Origin: Sporopachydermia quercuum
Lineage: Eukaryota; Ascomycota; Sporopachydermiomycetes; Sporopachydermiales; Sporopachydermiaceae
Assembly (NCBI GenBank): GCA_001599295.1
Contig: BCGN01000002.1
Span: 1,612,001 to 1,676,000, forward strand
Length of the DNA: 64,000 bases
Direction of reading: 5' to 3'
Part shown: one piece after another, positions 3,890 through 14,766 of the stretch
Position numbering within the stretch: position 1 is the stretch's first letter
Layout: each line of letters starts with the position of its first letter
Notes under the pieces: model-generated
Seen by the model: the letters and a program-made list of their open reading frames with translations, nothing else
Told to the model about the DNA's origin: nothing
Database searches by the model: none
Translations under genes and position numbers: made by a program

Positions 3890-5338
3890 CTTGTTGTTGA
3901 ATATTGTTTCGTCTATCTAGTTTTAATTTCTAAAAGCTTTACAATATCTGGTGTTGTAAATCGATGAAATAGAGTCTACAAATCAGCAGGTTGTCTGCTC
4001 AATTACTATCGATAGGGAATCAAAGCCGGCTTATATAGCCACAACCTCAATTTCCGCATTATCCCTTGTTGATGATATTTGGTATACTCATCAAGGAAAA
4101 CTGGATGGCACAGTCCAACAAGGTAAGTATAGCATCGAATGCAAGTCAATGTAAGATCGTAAATACTCTTCCGGAAGTTTGAAGAATCATAAGCAATTGC
4201 ACTGGTTATATCAATCTGATATTAATAATACTAGACTGAGTGGTTTCACAAGTAATTGATTAGGTGGGATTTATAACAAGATGTGTACTCGAAATTTCTT
4301 TAGGTTCATCAGTGCAGTTGCAATTACCATTTCCTACCACTGAGGAGGAAGTGCCTAAGATACAGTTCGCATTGTTCCATTGTTCTTTCACCACAACTTT
4401 ATCTATTTCTGAATCTTCGTATATTCAAGAACTGTCATTTCATCGGTAAGGTGTGTTTCTATGGATTTTTCACTTCAGGAAAGTCGAGTTTCCGATGNTG
4501 GAGTTGGCATCCACTCTTGATTTTCGAACATGTTGACGTCTGGGCTGCAATTCAAAATAAAAAGGATGTAAGTGCCTTTATGGTTCATGTGTTTTCATCA
4601 TGTATTATGTGTTTAGCGGTAGGACCCTTTTCTTTACAGAGCTTTACCCTGAAAATAACTGCTGTTCACCATGAATCAACAAGGCTATCTTTTCGAGATT
4701 GTTTAATACATATGAAAGTGATATATGGAGCACTACTTCTATCTATATAAGATGAACATGTATCAAGTCTCTCTTTCATGAAACACCAGTCAGNTTTCTT
4801 AGGCAACTAACACATTATCTAGGAGTTTCCTTAAAATCAATCCTGGAACTCTGATTAACAAATGACATAGACAATAAGTTTGATGCAATTGTGTTTATGG
4901 GAATATCAATCGATTCCACAAGCCTTACAACGGAAGTCTACCTCAGGTGAATAGCTTTCTTCAAATTTGTATAAAATAAGCTTCGAGGTATAAATCATGT
5001 TCAATGCAAACTTTATTCAGATAATGTATACTTTTGAGAGAATATCGTAGAGACCTTGAAAAAGAAAAAAAATATAGAACATACAGCTTAAAATCCGGCG
5101 GAAGTTACACTTACCGAATTACAACGATTAATGGGTTTTTTTAGTTGTAAGATTTTGAATTGCTCGTGTTGTATTCGATAATTGCAAAACAAACAGACTT
5201 CTATCTTGTACACAATTTTGTCCATTTCCCCTGACTTTCAATCCATCATTCAATAAGGCCCGATCTCGATACAATACTACGGAGTTAATCTTAATATAAA
5301 GTGATTAATGTTTTATTTAGATGTTAATTCGATTCCAT
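3890..5338. other. 1.45 kb intergenic region between the cell-wall gene and RPL28
   Basis: This holds the cell-wall gene promoter (TATA at 4031) and the RPL28 3' flank. Plus-strand open stretches at 4264-4449 and 4451-4750 begin with GTG codons, not ATG, and show no recognisable domain. I see no gene here that I can support. Confidence 0.5.
4031..4037 (-). promoter_or_regulatory. TATA box of the cell-wall protein gene
   Basis: On the minus strand the sequence TATATAA lies 142 bases before the start codon, within a short GC-rich palindromic setting (GCCGGC). A strong TATA is usual for regulated, highly expressed wall-protein genes. Confidence 0.5.
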
Positions 5339-6105
5339 TTAAGCAATCAATTCGACAACACCACCAGCAGCCTTAATCTTTTCTTCAGCTAACTTGGAAA
5401 CAAATCTAGCCTTAACAATAACAGGAACTTGAGGTAATCTTCCTTTACCCAAAACCTTACCGTAGCCAGCAGCCAAAGTATCAATGACAGGGGCAGCTTC
5501 AGAAGAAGCAGCAGACAAGTACTTATCTCTGGATTCAGTAGGAACAAGAGTCCATAGTTTATCAAGGTTGATAACTGGTTTCCAAAAATGAGCTTGCTGC
5601 TTATGAAAGTATCTCATACCAACCTTACCAAAGTAACCAGGATGGTATTTATCCAAGTTAGTTCTGTGATGGTGTTGACCACCAGCCATACCTCTACCAC
5701 CAGGATTCTTTCTGTGCTTTCCGATACGACCGTAACCGGCTAGGAAAAGTTAGTGTACTATTCAAAAATAAGTTTAATGAAAACTGACAAACAATCTACA
5801 AAGCGGAGTCTCAAGCAATATATATTCATCTCCGTCTCAAGACGCCCATATGTTGTGCCGACATTTCTATGATCATACAATAAGATAAATTCTGATAAGT
5901 TGCAATTCAAACAATCTGATCAATCTCCAACTATTGTGAACAAACAATTCATCTAATGCAATTAAAAACTCCAAAGATCGTTATTGCTTCAATAGTAATA
6001 TACTTCTCACTCGTTATCTTGATTGCTTTGACATAAAACAAGAATCGTTAACATACCGGTTACGTGGCCTCTGTGTTTTCTTGTCTTTGTTAATCTGGTA
6101 GGCAT
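5339..6105 (-). CDS. RPL28: 60S ribosomal protein uL15 (L28/L27a), one intron
   Basis: The coding sequence is complement(join(5339..5739, 6057..6105)), 149 codons, the same length as S. cerevisiae Rpl28. Exon 1 encodes [16 protein letters not shown] plus one base; exon 2 resumes at [17 protein letters not shown] and ends with GGVVELIA. The 317-base intron starts GTATGT and ends CTAACTTTTCCTAG, so its branch site is only nine bases from the splice junction. The first Met visible in exon 2 alone (at 5689) is internal ([10 protein letters not shown]). The protein is part of the large ribosomal subunit near the peptidyl-transferase region. Its upstream region shares two motifs with the RPL39/RPS14 promoter. 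Confidence 0.97.
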
Positions 6106-6310
6106 TTTTGATATTATCTATTAGCTGTCAATTCGTTACTGAATAAAACAATACCGTCTCGAAATAGATAATAATAAATTCACTCTATATGTGAACAACT
6201 ATGCAATGTACTTGGTAATTATGAGAGTGTCTACAGCAGATAGTAGAAACGAGCTCTAACCTGAGTCCTCACAAGCTGGAGAATTGCCCAGGCATACAAT
6301 GAATAATTTT

Positions 6311-6318
6311 GCGTGGGT
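6311..6318. promoter_or_regulatory. GCGTGGGT (ACCCACGC) ribosomal-promoter motif, Rap1-like
   Basis: The extended sequence is TTTTGCGTGGGTACA. The same core occurs at 13481-13488 between RPL39 and RPS14. Read on the other strand (ACCCACGCA) it is one base from the ACCCACACA type of Rap1 site. Binding is inferred, not shown. Confidence 0.4.
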
Positions 6319-6436
6319 ACACCAAGATTTCATAGTCGAGCTTCGATAGAGAATTCTATATGAAACATATGAGCACGGACAGAGATATACAGAATTCTGC
6401 CCAAGCAAATAAACACTAAATGCATCCTGTGATAAC

Positions 6437-6442
6437 CACGTG
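6437..6442. promoter_or_regulatory. CACGTG E-box (Cbf1-type) upstream of RPL28
   Basis: The context is AACCACGTGATG. Cbf1 sites occur in ribosomal-protein promoters of non-Saccharomyces yeasts. The hexamer is also found elsewhere in this window, so the assignment rests on its pairing with the GCGTGGGT motif. Confidence 0.35.
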
Positions 6443-6889
6443 ATGATTAGGTCATATTTTAACTTTACAACGCTCTTTGATCTTTGATCTTTGAATAGTA
6501 CGTAGGATATGAAGAAAGCTGCTTATTGATATCACTTTGATTTTTCAATCACGGTAGAAAATTAGAGAATTTTACAGAGATCAATCATATTTACCTATGT
6601 ATTGCATTCATGCCCGTCTGTGCATCGTACTGATGTATGCTCAATAGGGAACAGTTTCAAAGACAGTTGGTGTGGAAGGCGAATAGGAAATTACTGGTAC
6701 TCAACTGTTTTGGCATCAACCATGAATAACCCGATTACATGACACTATAAAGTGGACTTTCTCATTCAAATTCATGTGGTGTACTAGTGATTGTGATTAA
6801 ATTGAACTCAATCTTTATTATTACTCTAGGATAAAAAATAGAGATATACTTTAATATTACAGACAACTAAATCCTCAAATCCCCACTCA

Positions 6890-7584
6890 TTATATTTCCT
6901 GGTAACGTTGCATTAATAATCGCTTATACTCGGTTGGATTTTCATCCCAAAGTTGGGCAGCCCTTAATATTTGTAGTTAGTACAGTACTTTTTAGCCAGA
7001 AAATTACTTAACTGTATCAAAGCGCAATAACATACTGTGCGTTCAACGGACTACTGTTATTCGGTTCATTTAGTAGCGATTGCAATGAAAGTAAAATTGT
7101 TTGCACGTTATAAATTGCCGACCACTTTTCCTTGAGAATATCCAAACAGATATTTCCTGCCATGTCAACATTCGGGTGGTACATCGGAGAAACAAACTTG
7201 ATCGTTGGTGCAGCATATGGGTAGTTTTGGGGGAAAGTTAAGGAAATTTTGAATGTTAATCCTTCGTAGTACGTTCCTTCAGGACCAGCTATGGTTCCTG
7301 CCCATTGAAGCATGTCAGCGTCAGATTCAGGAAATGCACTAATACCTGGAGTTGTAGACATCTATTCAATTAATGCTGTTAGTATTACCCTCAGAGGAAC
7401 AGGAAATTGTTTAGAACGAGTGGCCTATTCCTTGACGTTGCAGAGACAAACTGATACTTACCATTAATTGTAAAAGCTCACTTTGTAATCTTTTTGTGAC
7501 AGAATGATTGTCAGTAGCTGGTGTTGAAGCACCTGAAAGCTTAGAACTATTAATCATAGCTGGATTGGCGTTTTGAGCATCCAT
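6890..7584 (-). CDS. UBC11: E2 ubiquitin-conjugating enzyme of the UBE2C/Ubc11 type, two introns
   Basis: The coding sequence is complement(join(6890..6962, 7036..7361, 7462..7584)), 173 residues. Exon 1 gives a short extension and the first helix ([11 protein letters not shown]). Exon 2 carries [12 protein letters not shown] (103-105) and the catalytic Cys113 in [11 protein letters not shown]. Exon 3 gives [30 protein letters not shown] and the N-terminal extension are hallmarks of UBE2C, the E2 that works with the APC/C on mitotic substrates; the sequence also matches S. cerevisiae Ubc11. Intron 1 is 100 bases (GTAAGT...AATAG) and intron 2 is 73 bases (GTATGT, TACTAAC, ...TTAAG). Exon 2 alone would read into a false ending (QYVIAL) inside intron 2. 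Confidence 0.93.
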
Positions 7585-9696
7585 TTTAATTTCAGAAGAA
7601 AGGTCTCGAAAATAGACTAACGAAAAAACCGATGAATATATAAAATCTTAAAACAATGTTGTTATTTTCTCCTTATTAACTGTATTGATGTATTTGAGAT
7701 TCTTCAACTGTTGTAAATAAATGTTAGGATGGTTACCTCAGATTAGTTATGAACGAGGCTTACAATTTAGGTCAGGCCGAACCAGTGTCATATTTCTACT
7801 TACTGAATAAACGCCACTGCTATGTTAATGACTCTGAATCAATAGTAGACTGTTGGTAAAATTTATTAATTATTCTTTTATAATCTGATAATCAAACTGC
7901 TTTCTCTGATGATTATACCACAAATCGGGGAAGTAAATAATTATGTCAGTTTAGTTGTTATAAACCATTAACAAACGCGAAATATTTCTTAAATTGCTAT
8001 TTTACTCAAATATAGTATTGTTTATTCTGAACAATTCTTTCATTAGATTATGAAAAAGAAAGAAAAAGAATATAAATGAGAACAAGAATGCAGATATTGG
8101 ATTGGAGAGAGGGAGGAATGAAATGATTACTGTCAACGGAATTGAAGAAATTTAGTTCACACGCTCTTTTTGTCTTACAGTGTGATGTTTACCAGTTACT
8201 AATAATTAACTACTACTTTTAGATATTGTCTACATATTGAATTCGTATTCCGTTTTAAGACAGCTACATCAGACATCGATTGCTTATAACTATGAAAGTA
8301 CATAAATATACATGAATAGATATAACTCTAGATATCCATATATTTTTTCTACTTCATCTCTTTTTCAATTCCCAGCCCTATTTATATCTATAGTCATTGT
8401 GAAGAAATGCTTAGCTTCTTGCTCCCTGATAAGTATAAAAGCTGACCAGTTTTACAGCTTCAGATTTCCCTTCAACTGTAAATGAAAATTCTTATCAGGG
8501 ATATATAGCTTTATAGTGGGATCAGTACACTGTTCTCCAAGTCAATTGCTTACATTGATTATGCACAACATACGGTAGTCCAGTATTCTCACCTATTATC
8601 ATAGGATTGAGGGATAGTTTCAACTATATCTTTTGATATCAGAACTCCCTTTATACTTTTGAACTATCATCTGGGAGCAATACTCTGTAATTAAGCGAAC
8701 GAATATGTTCTGTATTATTAATCAAGCAGCCAACAATTCTGTAGTTTCCCTTCCGATGCATGAAGGATAGTTAACATCGGTACTATAAATTGATAATTAA
8801 TTGGAGGTTGCACACAGCTTCTTCAATAGAGTTTGATTTGTAGTTGATTTTTTCTTAATTAGGAATACTAATATCACTCCTTGTTTGGAAGTGGGTAAAC
8901 AGCAAACAGATAGATCACATGTACACGATCTCCTATCTCTTGTCAATGAATATTCTTTTGAAAAGACATATTTATCTGAGTGCTCGAAAGCGAAGATATC
9001 TCAATTATTGGAATCCTCTAGCTGGAAGTGTTTGAGAAGTCGAGCTGACTCCGGCAATTCCCTTCATACGATTTCCCCATCGCAGCGCGCACCTCGTAGA
9101 ATTTTCGTTTAGTCAGGCTGTGCATGCTGGCGGTTAGGTGTTGATCTCGAGCTCTTCAGAATGTAAGATTGGCTCATCTTTTAACATAAATGAATAGACT
9201 TCAAATATCCAAACTTCAAATAGCTCTTTCAAAAAGAAAGAAATCTTAGAATTTACCTAGCTCATCCCATTATTATCAGAACTACATTGTTCCTGGCTGC
9301 TTATCACACATTAGATTTCGAATCTTCCATCAATATTCATAGAAACAAAATACTGATTAATTGATTATGTCATCCGCAACTAAACATCTATCACACTATT
9401 CAATGGACATTGAATAACTTAATCTACCTGTACAATTTTTTTCTTTTTCAGATCACTTTAATTGCCATTGGATTGAAGAGAAATGCTATGTCGTGGGAAA
9501 AGATGAATAGTTTTTGTATATGTATTAGCCTAAAGAGTTTCAATTTACTATTCTGAGTTTTCCTCTAACTATTTGTTCTAATTGAATTACCTGGGTCCTG
9601 TTATAGGATGTTCTTCATGAGTTGCAGATAATATTCTGTCAAATTTGACTCTGATAGACAACTAGATGGCATATTTTGAGGTTCAGGTAAATAATA
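7585..9696. other. 2.1 kb divergent intergenic region, UBC11/DCR1
   Basis: This is a long AT-rich interval between two divergent genes. An open stretch at 8885-9112 starts with TTG and resembles nothing. Apart from a short upstream ORF overlapping the right-hand gene start (9666-9710), I see no RNA gene, repeat or convincing site. Confidence 0.5.
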
Positions 9697-9710
9697 ATGA
9701 GTGGAAGTGA
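9666..9710 (+). other. upstream ORF overlapping the DCR1 start codon
   Basis: An ATG at 9666 opens a 14-codon frame that ends in TGA at 9708-9710, overlapping the main ATG (9697) in another frame. If the transcript starts upstream of 9666 this would lower translation of the RNase III; the transcription start is unknown. Confidence 0.3.
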
Positions 9711-11562
9711 TAAATTGAAACAGAATGCTCCGAAAAGAAAAGTGAGTCAGTCAGCTTCAGAAGGGGGTGGAAATGCAAGGGCTAAGAGGAGTCGACTAAA
9801 TTCTTCACCACCAGGACCATCTTCATCATCTCTAGAAGCAGAGAATATACCTTTAGCTCAAGTTGAAGCTGTTAAAGAAAATGGCCTTTCCAAAAATTTT
9901 GGACTAACAATATCTACTTTGGAGTCAGTAGAGTATTATGTATCGCAGTTAACCAATGCAGTGGAAAATATCATACAATTTGCACCCACACAAGAAGTGA
10001 ATGATAGGATTCTGAATTCTGAATCTTCAAACTCAACGGAACTGATTCAAACACTGTCTAGAAAGAAAGTTCAATTGGCAGTATTGTTGAAGAATGTCCA
10101 CACAAAAGGTCATTTGAAACTTTTTGATCAACTACTGGAGTTTACAAAAGCTCAAGATTTGCAGAAACTATCCAATTTGAGTGATAAGGAGAATGAAATA
10201 AAGAAACCATCAACTATAGCGATAGTAAAAGCACAGACAGGTGTGAAGAATTATGATCCTGGACTTGGATCATTCCCTTCATTACCAGAGATTAATAATA
10301 AGGCATTAGAGTTTCAAGTGTTCAGTCATAAGTCCCGGATGAACGATAAGGACTATCTAACAGATGAAGAACGAATATCTGGTAGCAACGAACGGTTGGA
10401 ATTCTTAGGAGATTCAATTCTTGGTACGGTGGTGACAGAAACACTATTTGACAAATTTCCTTACGCTAGAGAAGGAGCATTGACAAAGTTACGATCGAAA
10501 TGTGTTTGTAATGATACTCTAAGAAAATGGGCTGAAGCTTATGAGTTTCCCTCTCGTATTTTATTTGACGATAAAAAAATACAAGCATTGAGAGTTAAGA
10601 CGAAAGATACTGACAAACCTGAGAAAGAAAGTTCAACAGTATTAGAAGAAGTCGCTGCAGGAAAAGGGAAAATTTTTGCTGATGTGTTGGAGGCATATAT
10701 AGCAGCCGTCGTGCTTGATTCTGAGAATGGAAGACAGGTGGCTACTAAGTGGATTCAAGCTTTGATTAAACCACTTATAGATAAGGCAGAGTGTACGCTG
10801 AAAAACGAAAGGCTCAACGAAAATGCCAAGAACGTTTTATACTCTAAAGTGGGATCAGCGCAAACTCCCATTGAATATTTACGCGTACGAAAAGGTGACG
10901 GTCAAAAAATTGATTATGTTGTGCATGCTCGTATAAATGGTACTGTCGTAGGTAAAGGTAGGGGAAAAAGTGAAAAAGATGCAAAGACACGGGCTGCCAT
11001 GGATGCTTTAGCAAATGAAGAGCTGATTGAACAGTTTGCATCAATAAGGAGAGAAAAGCCAAGATCAGAAACAATGATTAAAGAGGAAGAGAGACAAGAA
11101 ACTGTGACATCAGTGATCAAATACCCTTTAGTTCAGAATGATGGTGATAATAATGGTTACGTAGAGAAACCTCTATCTTCCCCGAAATCTGAAGTAGTTG
11201 CACCTATAAGAAGGAATGCTGTTCTACTGGATTCTCTAACCGATAGTTTAGCTGATAAAAAGTTTTCTGAATTTTTTGCGAAAACGGTGATTCAAGATAT
11301 GCCTGATGAAGAAGTCTCTCCTGATGCCAAACAACGACTAGTACAAGAATGTAACAATAAACCTTTAGGACGACCTATCTATAAACATGTGGCGATTCAT
11401 GAGACTATTCCTTATCCGGAATTTGAAGCAAATGTATATCTAAAAGGAGTTTTAGTCGGGAAAGGAGTAGGTAGAAGTAAAAGAGCTGCCGAAAGAAAAG
11501 CCGCTGAGATCGCTTTGAAAGGTATCAAGCTTTTTTATGGTACAGATAAAAAAGGACAATAA
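9697..11562 (+). CDS. DCR1: RNase III with two dsRNA-binding domains (budding-yeast Dicer type)
   Basis: The 621-residue protein has basic nuclear-type signals near the N-terminus (PKRKVSQ, RAKRSR), a helical N-terminal domain (about 70-190), and one RNase III domain (about 190-360). The signature is NERLEFLGDSIL (231-242), and all acidic residues expected for catalysis are present: Glu232, Glu235, Asp239, Asp329 and Glu332. dsRBD1 is at 376-443 and dsRBD2 at 544-611 (VGKGVGRSKRAAERKAAEIAL). One RNase III domain plus two dsRBDs, at about 600 residues, is the layout of budding-yeast Dicer (Dcr1 of Naumovozyma, Cdl1/Dcr1 of Candida albicans). S. cerevisiae Rnt1 has a single dsRBD and 471 residues. 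As in C. albicans, it may both make siRNAs and process rRNA and snRNA; no Argonaute gene is in this window. It has no introns. Confidence 0.87.
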   Translation: MSGSDKLKQNAPKRKVSQSASEGGGNARAKRSRLNSSPPGPSSSSLEAENIPLAQVEAVKENGLSKNFGLTISTLESVEYYVSQLTNAVENIIQFAPTQEVNDRILNSESSNSTELIQTLSRKKVQLAVLLKNVHTKGHLKLFDQLLEFTKAQDLQKLSNLSDKENEIKKPSTIAIVKAQTGVKNYDPGLGSFPSLPEINNKALEFQVFSHKSRMNDKDYLTDEERISGSNERLEFLGDSILGTVVTETLFDKFPYAREGALTKLRSKCVCNDTLRKWAEAYEFPSRILFDDKKIQALRVKTKDTDKPEKESSTVLEEVAAGKGKIFADVLEAYIAAVVLDSENGRQVATKWIQALIKPLIDKAECTLKNERLNENAKNVLYSKVGSAQTPIEYLRVRKGDGQKIDYVVHARINGTVVGKGRGKSEKDAKTRAAMDALANEELIEQFASIRREKPRSETMIKEEERQETVTSVIKYPLVQNDGDNNGYVEKPLSSPKSEVVAPIRRNAVLLDSLTDSLADKKFSEFFAKTVIQDMPDEEVSPDAKQRLVQECNNKPLGRPIYKHVAIHETIPYPEFEANVYLKGVLVGKGVGRSKRAAERKAAEIALKGIKLFYGTDKKGQ

Positions 11563-13894: not shown

Positions 13895-14766
13895 ATGGCT
13901 CCAAAGACTGGTATGTGCATAAAAGAGAATATAATTAATACAAAGGAGATATTCATTGATCAATAAGCAGTTANGGCAGGTGATGTTTGTTGAATGTAGG
14001 AGTTACTGAAGGAGAAGATTTATACCGAGCGACAAATAAAGTGTAATAAACAGGTCAACCTATGAGAGTAGTTAATCAACAAGTTATAAGGAAGTTCTGG
14101 AGTTGTTGAAATTTGAGACGAAATGACCCTTCCGTCGAATGTTATTGAAGGAATTGTTTATCAGCAATACAAAGCTGAAAAAAGATCACTAGAAAGCAAC
14201 TAAACCATTCAACGTTTCTTCTATGATCTAGTTGTATAATCAACAAACATCGGTGTGAAAATGCGAAAAGCCATTTTGGGCGTTGAATATTTCCTAGTAC
14301 GATTTGTTATCATTAGTTTTACCGTATCTCATGTACTAACTTATTAGAAAACGTTACCTTAGGCCCACAATCCCGTGATGGCAGCCAAGTTTTTGGCGTT
14401 GCTAGAATTTTTGCTTCTTTCAACGATACCTTTGTTCACGTTACTGATTTATCAGGACGTGAAACCATCTCTCGCGTTACCGGTGGTATGAAGGTCAAGG
14501 CCGACAGAGATGAATCATCTCCTTACGCTGCTATGTTGGCTGCCCAAGATGTTGCCGTTAAATGCAAGGAAGTTGGAATTACTGCTGTTCACATCAAAAT
14601 CAGAGCTACTGGTGGTACCGGTACCAAGACTCCTGGTCCTGGTGGTCAATCAGCCTTGAGAGCTTTGGCTAGATCTGGTCTCCGAATTGGTCGTATTGAA
14701 GATGTTACCCCAATTCCTTCAGACTCTACTAGAAGAAAGGGTGGTAGAAGAGGTAGAAGACTTTGA
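13895..14766 (+). CDS. RPS14: 40S ribosomal protein uS11 (S14), one intron
   Basis: The coding sequence is join(13895..13910, 14348..14766), 144 residues. Exon 1 is 16 bases (MAPKT plus one base). Exon 2 continues [20 protein letters not shown] and includes [31 protein letters not shown] and the invariant C-terminus GGRRGRRL. The 437-base intron begins GTATGT and ends TACTAACTTATTAG, with the branch site at 14334-14340. The protein sits on the small-subunit platform, where its C-terminal tail contacts the mRNA path. The expected N-terminus is reached only with the first exon; the first Met inside exon 2 (14488) is internal. Confidence 0.97.

Follow-up and report, generated by a model that had tools for sequence, protein, structure and literature searches.

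Does an RNase III gene with two dsRBDs mark a budding yeast that still carries out RNAi, or does it encode a housekeeping enzyme of RNA maturation? The question is raised by a gene in a stretch of 64,000 nucleotides of Sporopachydermia quercuum (the window), which an original prediction had described as a budding-yeast Dicer. The reading that best explains the evidence, to which we give a probability of roughly 0.78, is that the gene is an intact housekeeping RNase III of a yeast in which CTG encodes leucine, in which RNAi has very probably been lost, and in which a paralogue, here called C6, lacks dsRBD2. The genome searched comprises 16.4 Mb in 12 contigs.

As predicted, the 621-residue protein carries a single RNase III domain, which retains its catalytic acids, and two separate dsRBDs, and the Rnt1-like motif LYSKVGSAQTP of the first dsRBD is present at residues 381–391 (Table 1). 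The Pfam Ribonuclease_3 model matches at 232–342 with 78.5 bits. E235, D239, D329, and E332, which we take to be the RNase III catalytic quartet, do not vary among the 34 aligned proteins. The Pfam dsRBD model covers two stretches of the protein, the best being 548–608, and dsRBD2 is also matched by a profile made from C-terminal tails. In the AlphaFold model, the dsRBDs form separate alpha-beta-beta-beta-alpha folds (377–439 and 544–619) with block pLDDT values of 85–96, except for the final block of dsRBD2, and the N-terminal region is predicted to contain helices between residues 72 and 163. The model rests on 34 aligned sequences and has a mean pLDDT of 74 and a pTM of 0.47, so the relative placing of the domains is unsure. 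Relative to S. cerevisiae Rnt1 and the P. stipitis Dicer, the RNase III domain carries an insert at about residues 290–320.

Table 1. Coordinates of the RNase III gene and its parts (window positions), and of the related loci elsewhere in the genome.
Feature	Location	Strand	Basis
Two-dsRBD RNase III gene	9697..11562	+	single unbroken ORF, 621 codons / 621 aa
RNase_3_N (N-terminal helical domain), residues 71–158	9907..10170	+	Pfam PF18497, 50.7 bits (cut-off 26.8)
RNase III catalytic domain, residues 202–357	10300..10767	+	Pfam PF14622 202–357; PF00636 232–342
Signature NERLEFLGDS, residues 231–240 (E235, D239)	10387..10416	+	invariant residues, alignment column counts
ADVLEAY, residues 328–334 (D329, E332)	10678..10698	+	invariant residues, alignment column counts
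dsRBD1, about residues 369–440, then Rnt1-like tail (IRREKPRSETMIKE)	10801..11016	+	
dsRBD2, about residues 536–610	11302..11526	+	Pfam, custom dsRBD2 profile, AlphaFold model
Second RNase III, open core and decayed dsRBD2	C6:1117238-1118965 (L006 3739-5466)	-	
Argonaute pseudogene, interrupted by four in-frame stops and spread over three frames	C4:1039028-1041926 (L005 2529-5427)	-	

Two features of the neighbourhood may be mentioned. The adjoining 5.8 kb of the window (3890–9696) contain no ORF of at least 150 aa. Further along, at 14317–14766, lies an ORF for ribosomal protein uS11, whose first 31 bases include TACTAAC (14334–14340) and a TAG (to 14347) resembling an intron's 3' end, which would place the 5' exon of uS11 upstream.

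The architecture fits more than one known class. The protein has the RNase_3_N domain, RNase III domain, dsRBD1, and intact catalytic acids of an Rnt1-type enzyme, but two dsRBDs instead of one; for this reason we class it as a protein that works like Rnt1 and not as its orthologue. It also has the layout of a budding-yeast Dicer (Dcr1), namely one RNase III domain, two dsRBDs, and neither helicase nor PAZ in Pfam. The canonical Dicer layout is absent, since Pfam finds no helicase or PAZ match and one RNase III domain in the protein; the ORFs at the genome's two further RNase III loci show neither helicase nor PAZ. The name Cdl1, which had been applied to this layout, does not fit: C. albicans CDL1 is described as inactive in the cited part of PMC11047096, and the window protein keeps its catalytic acids.

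It had been reasoned that a two-dsRBD layout identifies a Dicer. Pfam scans of ten relatives show two dsRBD stretches in P0002, P0011, and P0038 and a single one in each of the remaining seven, and a second dsRBD judged by C-terminal tails occurs in 22 rows of the alignment. Many other RNase IIIs of yeasts thus share the layout. Being so widespread, it is no mark of a Dicer, and on its own it is poor ground for inferring RNAi.

Similarity to characterized enzymes leans towards Rnt1. In Foldseek, the best structural match is S. cerevisiae Rnt1 (5t16; E 8.7e-17, 37% identity), compared with E 6.9e-12 (22% identity) for K. polysporus Dcr1 and E 7.0e-10 (32% identity) for the P. stipitis Dicer. 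A sequence search gives 152 bits for Rnt1, 90 for K. polysporus Dcr1, and 148 for the P. stipitis Dicer. The phylogeny with Rnt1 and Dcr1 relatives that had been proposed was built twice, with 41 rows and with 40 (without W. mucosus P0051), but these trees do not settle the ancestry of the window protein. It and C6 sit on long branches with no supported sisters in both, and a sister relationship between the two is not rejected (p-AU 0.318). The window protein falls outside the Rnt1 clade, on a long branch, and forcing it into that group gives p-AU 0.043 (C6, 0.153); forcing it together with the CTG-clade enzymes gives 0.074 (C6, 0.094). For the window protein, both placements are strained.

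The gene had also been thought to be possibly the only RNase III of this yeast. A genome search, which had been suggested as a check, shows otherwise: PF00636 matches three loci, the window gene, C6:1118117, and C2:570579. The last was rejected as a further enzyme, as no NERLEFLGDS-like motif is seen by eye in its ORF; it resembles mitochondrial mL44, with a weak match below the cut-off. The C6 locus is a second RNase III. Its ORF of 385 codons covers the RNase III domain and dsRBD1, and a protein search matches it best to a C. orthopsilosis entry that bears the name Dicer (44% identity over 58%), with P0002 slightly closer in the core alignment (46%). Beyond its stop codon, a dsRBD2 profile made from 22 C-terminal tails hand-picked as dsRBD2 matches two collinear halves in different frames (profile positions 8–36 and 45–85; E 8.1e-5 and 1.1e-4), the next best of 3489 fragments having E 4.1. 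The original frame contains five stops from the end of the ORF onward. From the halves behind the stop it follows that C6 formerly had two dsRBDs, and, as read from these frames, its dsRBD2 has been lost through nonsense and frame changes. A low-complexity stretch upstream, possibly part of this gene, also has stops and frame changes.

Could the roles of the two enzymes be swapped or shared, with the truncated C6 as the live Rnt1 and the window gene as a former Dicer, left over or repurposed? The core of C6 is open between disruptions on both sides, for which the chance at an Argonaute-like density of disruptions is about 0.09; it scores 168 bits against S. cerevisiae Rnt1, slightly above the window protein; and the single N in the core is the last base of a leucine codon, CTN. 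However, no RNase_3_N match is found in C6 at E values up to 0.1, its signature reads NQRLEF, with Q at a position that is E in 39 of 41 rows and G in one other, and it lacks the conserved tail after dsRBD1, whereas none of these is missing or altered in the window gene. Swapped or shared roles are therefore considered unlikely. The C6 core stays open, and it might share or hold the RNA-maturation work.

A Dicer would need a working Argonaute partner. If the window protein were a dual-function Dicer, its siRNAs would load Argonaute, the enzyme would serve rRNA and snRNA processing as well, and RNAi would be alive. One Piwi locus was found in the genome (C4:1039130), and its reading, P0100, aligns with its closest relative P0101 at 45% identity over 98% of the query. 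The alignment runs through three frames, which amounts to two frame changes, one of them in an RG-rich repeat and less certain. The long frame has the stops TGA, TGA, TAG, and TAG at places where P0101 has R, G, S, and A. The remainder is well conserved, clearly so in PIWI, and D560, E599, D631, and D782 of P0100, presumably the slicer tetrad, are identical in P0101. Upstream there seems to be a first exon, followed by an intron.

In principle, assembly errors could account for the breaks in Argonaute and C6, or the stops could be read through, and the assembly does contain single Ns, 56 of them in the window. These, however, probably represent heterozygous SNPs: they occur at half the density in coding DNA, and 10 of the 18 coding Ns are at codon position 3 (p 0.043). 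The 9.5 kb around Argonaute hold two Ns, neither at a stop, and there is none at the frame changes. As a control, a kinase family was picked regardless of open frames, and 108 of its 116 matches contain no stop. Six of the eight flagged kinases were inspected; in four the stop is at or within 5 residues of the match edge, and in two there is a GT-AG intron candidate, so that the "TAG" kinases among these six were discarded as a sign of recoding. The nearly stop-free control makes assembly error or recoding unlikely. In addition, two TGA and two TAG codons over R, G, S, and A fit no single reassignment, and frame changes accompany the stops. Taken together, an artefact or readthrough is very unlikely.

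The genetic code of the host was considered separately. Membership in the CTG-Ser or CTG-Ala clade, suggested by the first named matches, is ruled out by an ISWI-type ATPase, in which 8 of 9 CTG codons align with leucine in S. cerevisiae Isw1. In OTC, one of four CTG codons aligns with leucine in both targets compared and the other three are uninformative. Judged from such alignments, the host decodes CTG as leucine. A gene for the complex I 75 kDa subunit is present.

Because the sole Argonaute gene found is a pseudogene, it is very probable that this host no longer has RNAi but has lost it, as far as one assembly shows (other strains may differ), and no siRNAs would be expected to act. The suggestion that the yeast may retain RNAi has accordingly become unlikely. 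By a rough estimate the loss is recent, the four stops corresponding to about 81–129 substitutions in 2478 bp, or 3–5% neutral change. A living dual-function Dicer is not without arguments, as the protein has two dsRBDs, the Argonaute is recognizable over nearly its full length, and C. albicans DCR1 is, in the cited part of PMC11047096, essential and dual-function, with dsRBD2 needed for RNAi. In vitro dicing of long dsRNA may remain, yet the effector is missing, its four stops and two frame changes lying where there is no N, and we regard this alternative as very unlikely. The original prediction had held that the protein would be simply an Rnt1 with an extra dsRBD if the genome held a closer Dcr1 and no Argonaute and there were no siRNA-sized RNAs; a working Argonaute is indeed missing, but no closer, intact Dcr1 lies elsewhere in the genome.

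Loss of RNAi would make this one more yeast case, notable because it is still readable. Most Saccharomycotina lack RNAi, with a patchy distribution, according to the cited part of a review (PMC5499181), and killer virus retention is a proposed cause of the loss in that of PMC7763443. Relics of Totivirus-like RdRp, sought as a sign of RNAi loss, gave no match here, but the family gave none in any control genome either, so the negative carries no weight. A weak literature search, made without the species name, found no title on this pair of genes.

What work would be left for the intact enzyme? Most likely it works like Rnt1 in routine RNA maturation. S. cerevisiae Rnt1 recognizes AGNN and cleaves the precursors of U1, U2, U4, U5, and U3, as given in the cited part of PMC13183374. 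Hairpins were sought in the first 200 nt 3' of each matched snRNA end, with pairs counted over at most 2 mismatches. Behind U2 is a hairpin of 21 pairs with an AGGT loop at +40, and behind U4 one of 17 pairs with an AGGT loop at +30, neither matched in 500 dinucleotide shuffles; behind U5 is one of 14 pairs with an AGGA loop at +16, and 1 of 500 such shuffles reaches 14 pairs. U4 served as a fresh test, examined only after the AGNN pattern had appeared at U5 and U2. Among 638 background stretches of 200 nt, none reaches 14 pairs and three reach 12, and, counted over single positions in the window, 14 pairs are reached by none of the 7819 AGNN loops and by 13 of the 120053 loops of other kinds. 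An earlier, simpler test of contiguous pairs gave 9 pairs for U2 (1/500 shuffles) and 7 for U5 (26/500), U5 being weaker here than in the mismatch-tolerant test. U1, whose own match is below the cut-off of its family, is weak: its best hairpin has 11–13 pairs with AGAG (16/500 shuffles in the first 200 nt), and a bulged AGGT-capped hairpin near +153 in its minimum-energy fold was noticed after the fact. No NGNN hairpin was found within 400 nt of U3. AGNN hairpins thus accompany three of the five RNAs known as Rnt1 substrates.

On the model of its family, the following mechanism is proposed for the enzyme. In the window protein, a second dsRBD is added to the body of an Rnt1, which comprises the N-terminal domain, the RNase III domain, dsRBD1, and the conserved tail. 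Like other members of its family, it would act as a homodimer, with dsRBD1 docking on hairpins capped by AGNN tetraloops and two active sites cutting both strands at a fixed distance below the loop. Such cleavage would trim the 3' ends of the U2, U4, and U5 precursors, and pre-rRNA may, by analogy, be trimmed likewise. We infer this assignment of enzyme to substrate. The window gene is the sole fully intact candidate for RNA maturation and presumably does that work. Of the dual role originally proposed, snRNA maturation is likely in view of the hairpins behind U2, U4, and U5, but persisting RNAi is unlikely given the Argonaute pseudogene.

A wider scenario can be put forward tentatively, as possible but doubtful, in which RNAi has been caught in the middle of its loss outside the well-studied families. 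Two paralogues with two dsRBDs would once have shared dicing and housekeeping; Argonaute then broke, C6 lost precisely its RNAi-specific dsRBD2, and the survivor keeps its own dsRBD2 with no Argonaute left, so that this domain would have to serve RNA maturation. If true, nature would have produced in C6 the equivalent of the dcr1-RNAi truncation made in the laboratory in C. albicans. In yeasts, the disappearance of RNAi is frequently viewed as plain gene absence, and a readable Argonaute allows it to be timed. A two-dsRBD enzyme that persists without Argonaute is likewise a natural test of a need for dsRBD2 other than RNAi.

How does the window protein compare with known systems? S. cerevisiae Rnt1 resembles it in its RNase III domain, dsRBD1, and tail, and is its best fold match. 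Rnt1 also has an N-terminal domain of the RNase_3_N family, as does the window protein. The two differ in that their core identity is only 38% and the tree does not join them; moreover, Rnt1 proteins are without a second dsRBD in the account of the cited part of PMC11047096. K. polysporus Dcr1 likewise has an N-terminal domain, an RNase III domain, and a pair of dsRBDs, of which the crystallized protein lacks the C-terminal one, but its identity is low (see above), its fold match is weaker, and the aligned part has no Rnt1-like tail. C. albicans Dcr1, taken to be row P0038 (611 aa) from its closeness in the tree to a C. dubliniensis row, has the same domain order and a similar length, but it does not rank among the 14 rows with the highest identity to the window protein (at most 38% in the core). 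In the cited part of PMC11047096, C. albicans keeps an Argonaute gene, which is broken in S. quercuum, and removal of dsRBD2 from its Dcr1 dramatically reduces siRNAs and slows growth while the cells stay viable. Nearest to the window protein, both by path in the core tree and by identity (43–44% in the core), are P0002–P0004. P0002 differs from it in that its RNase_3_N match is below the cut-off, but all three share its two dsRBDs, P0002 by Pfam and the others by their tails.
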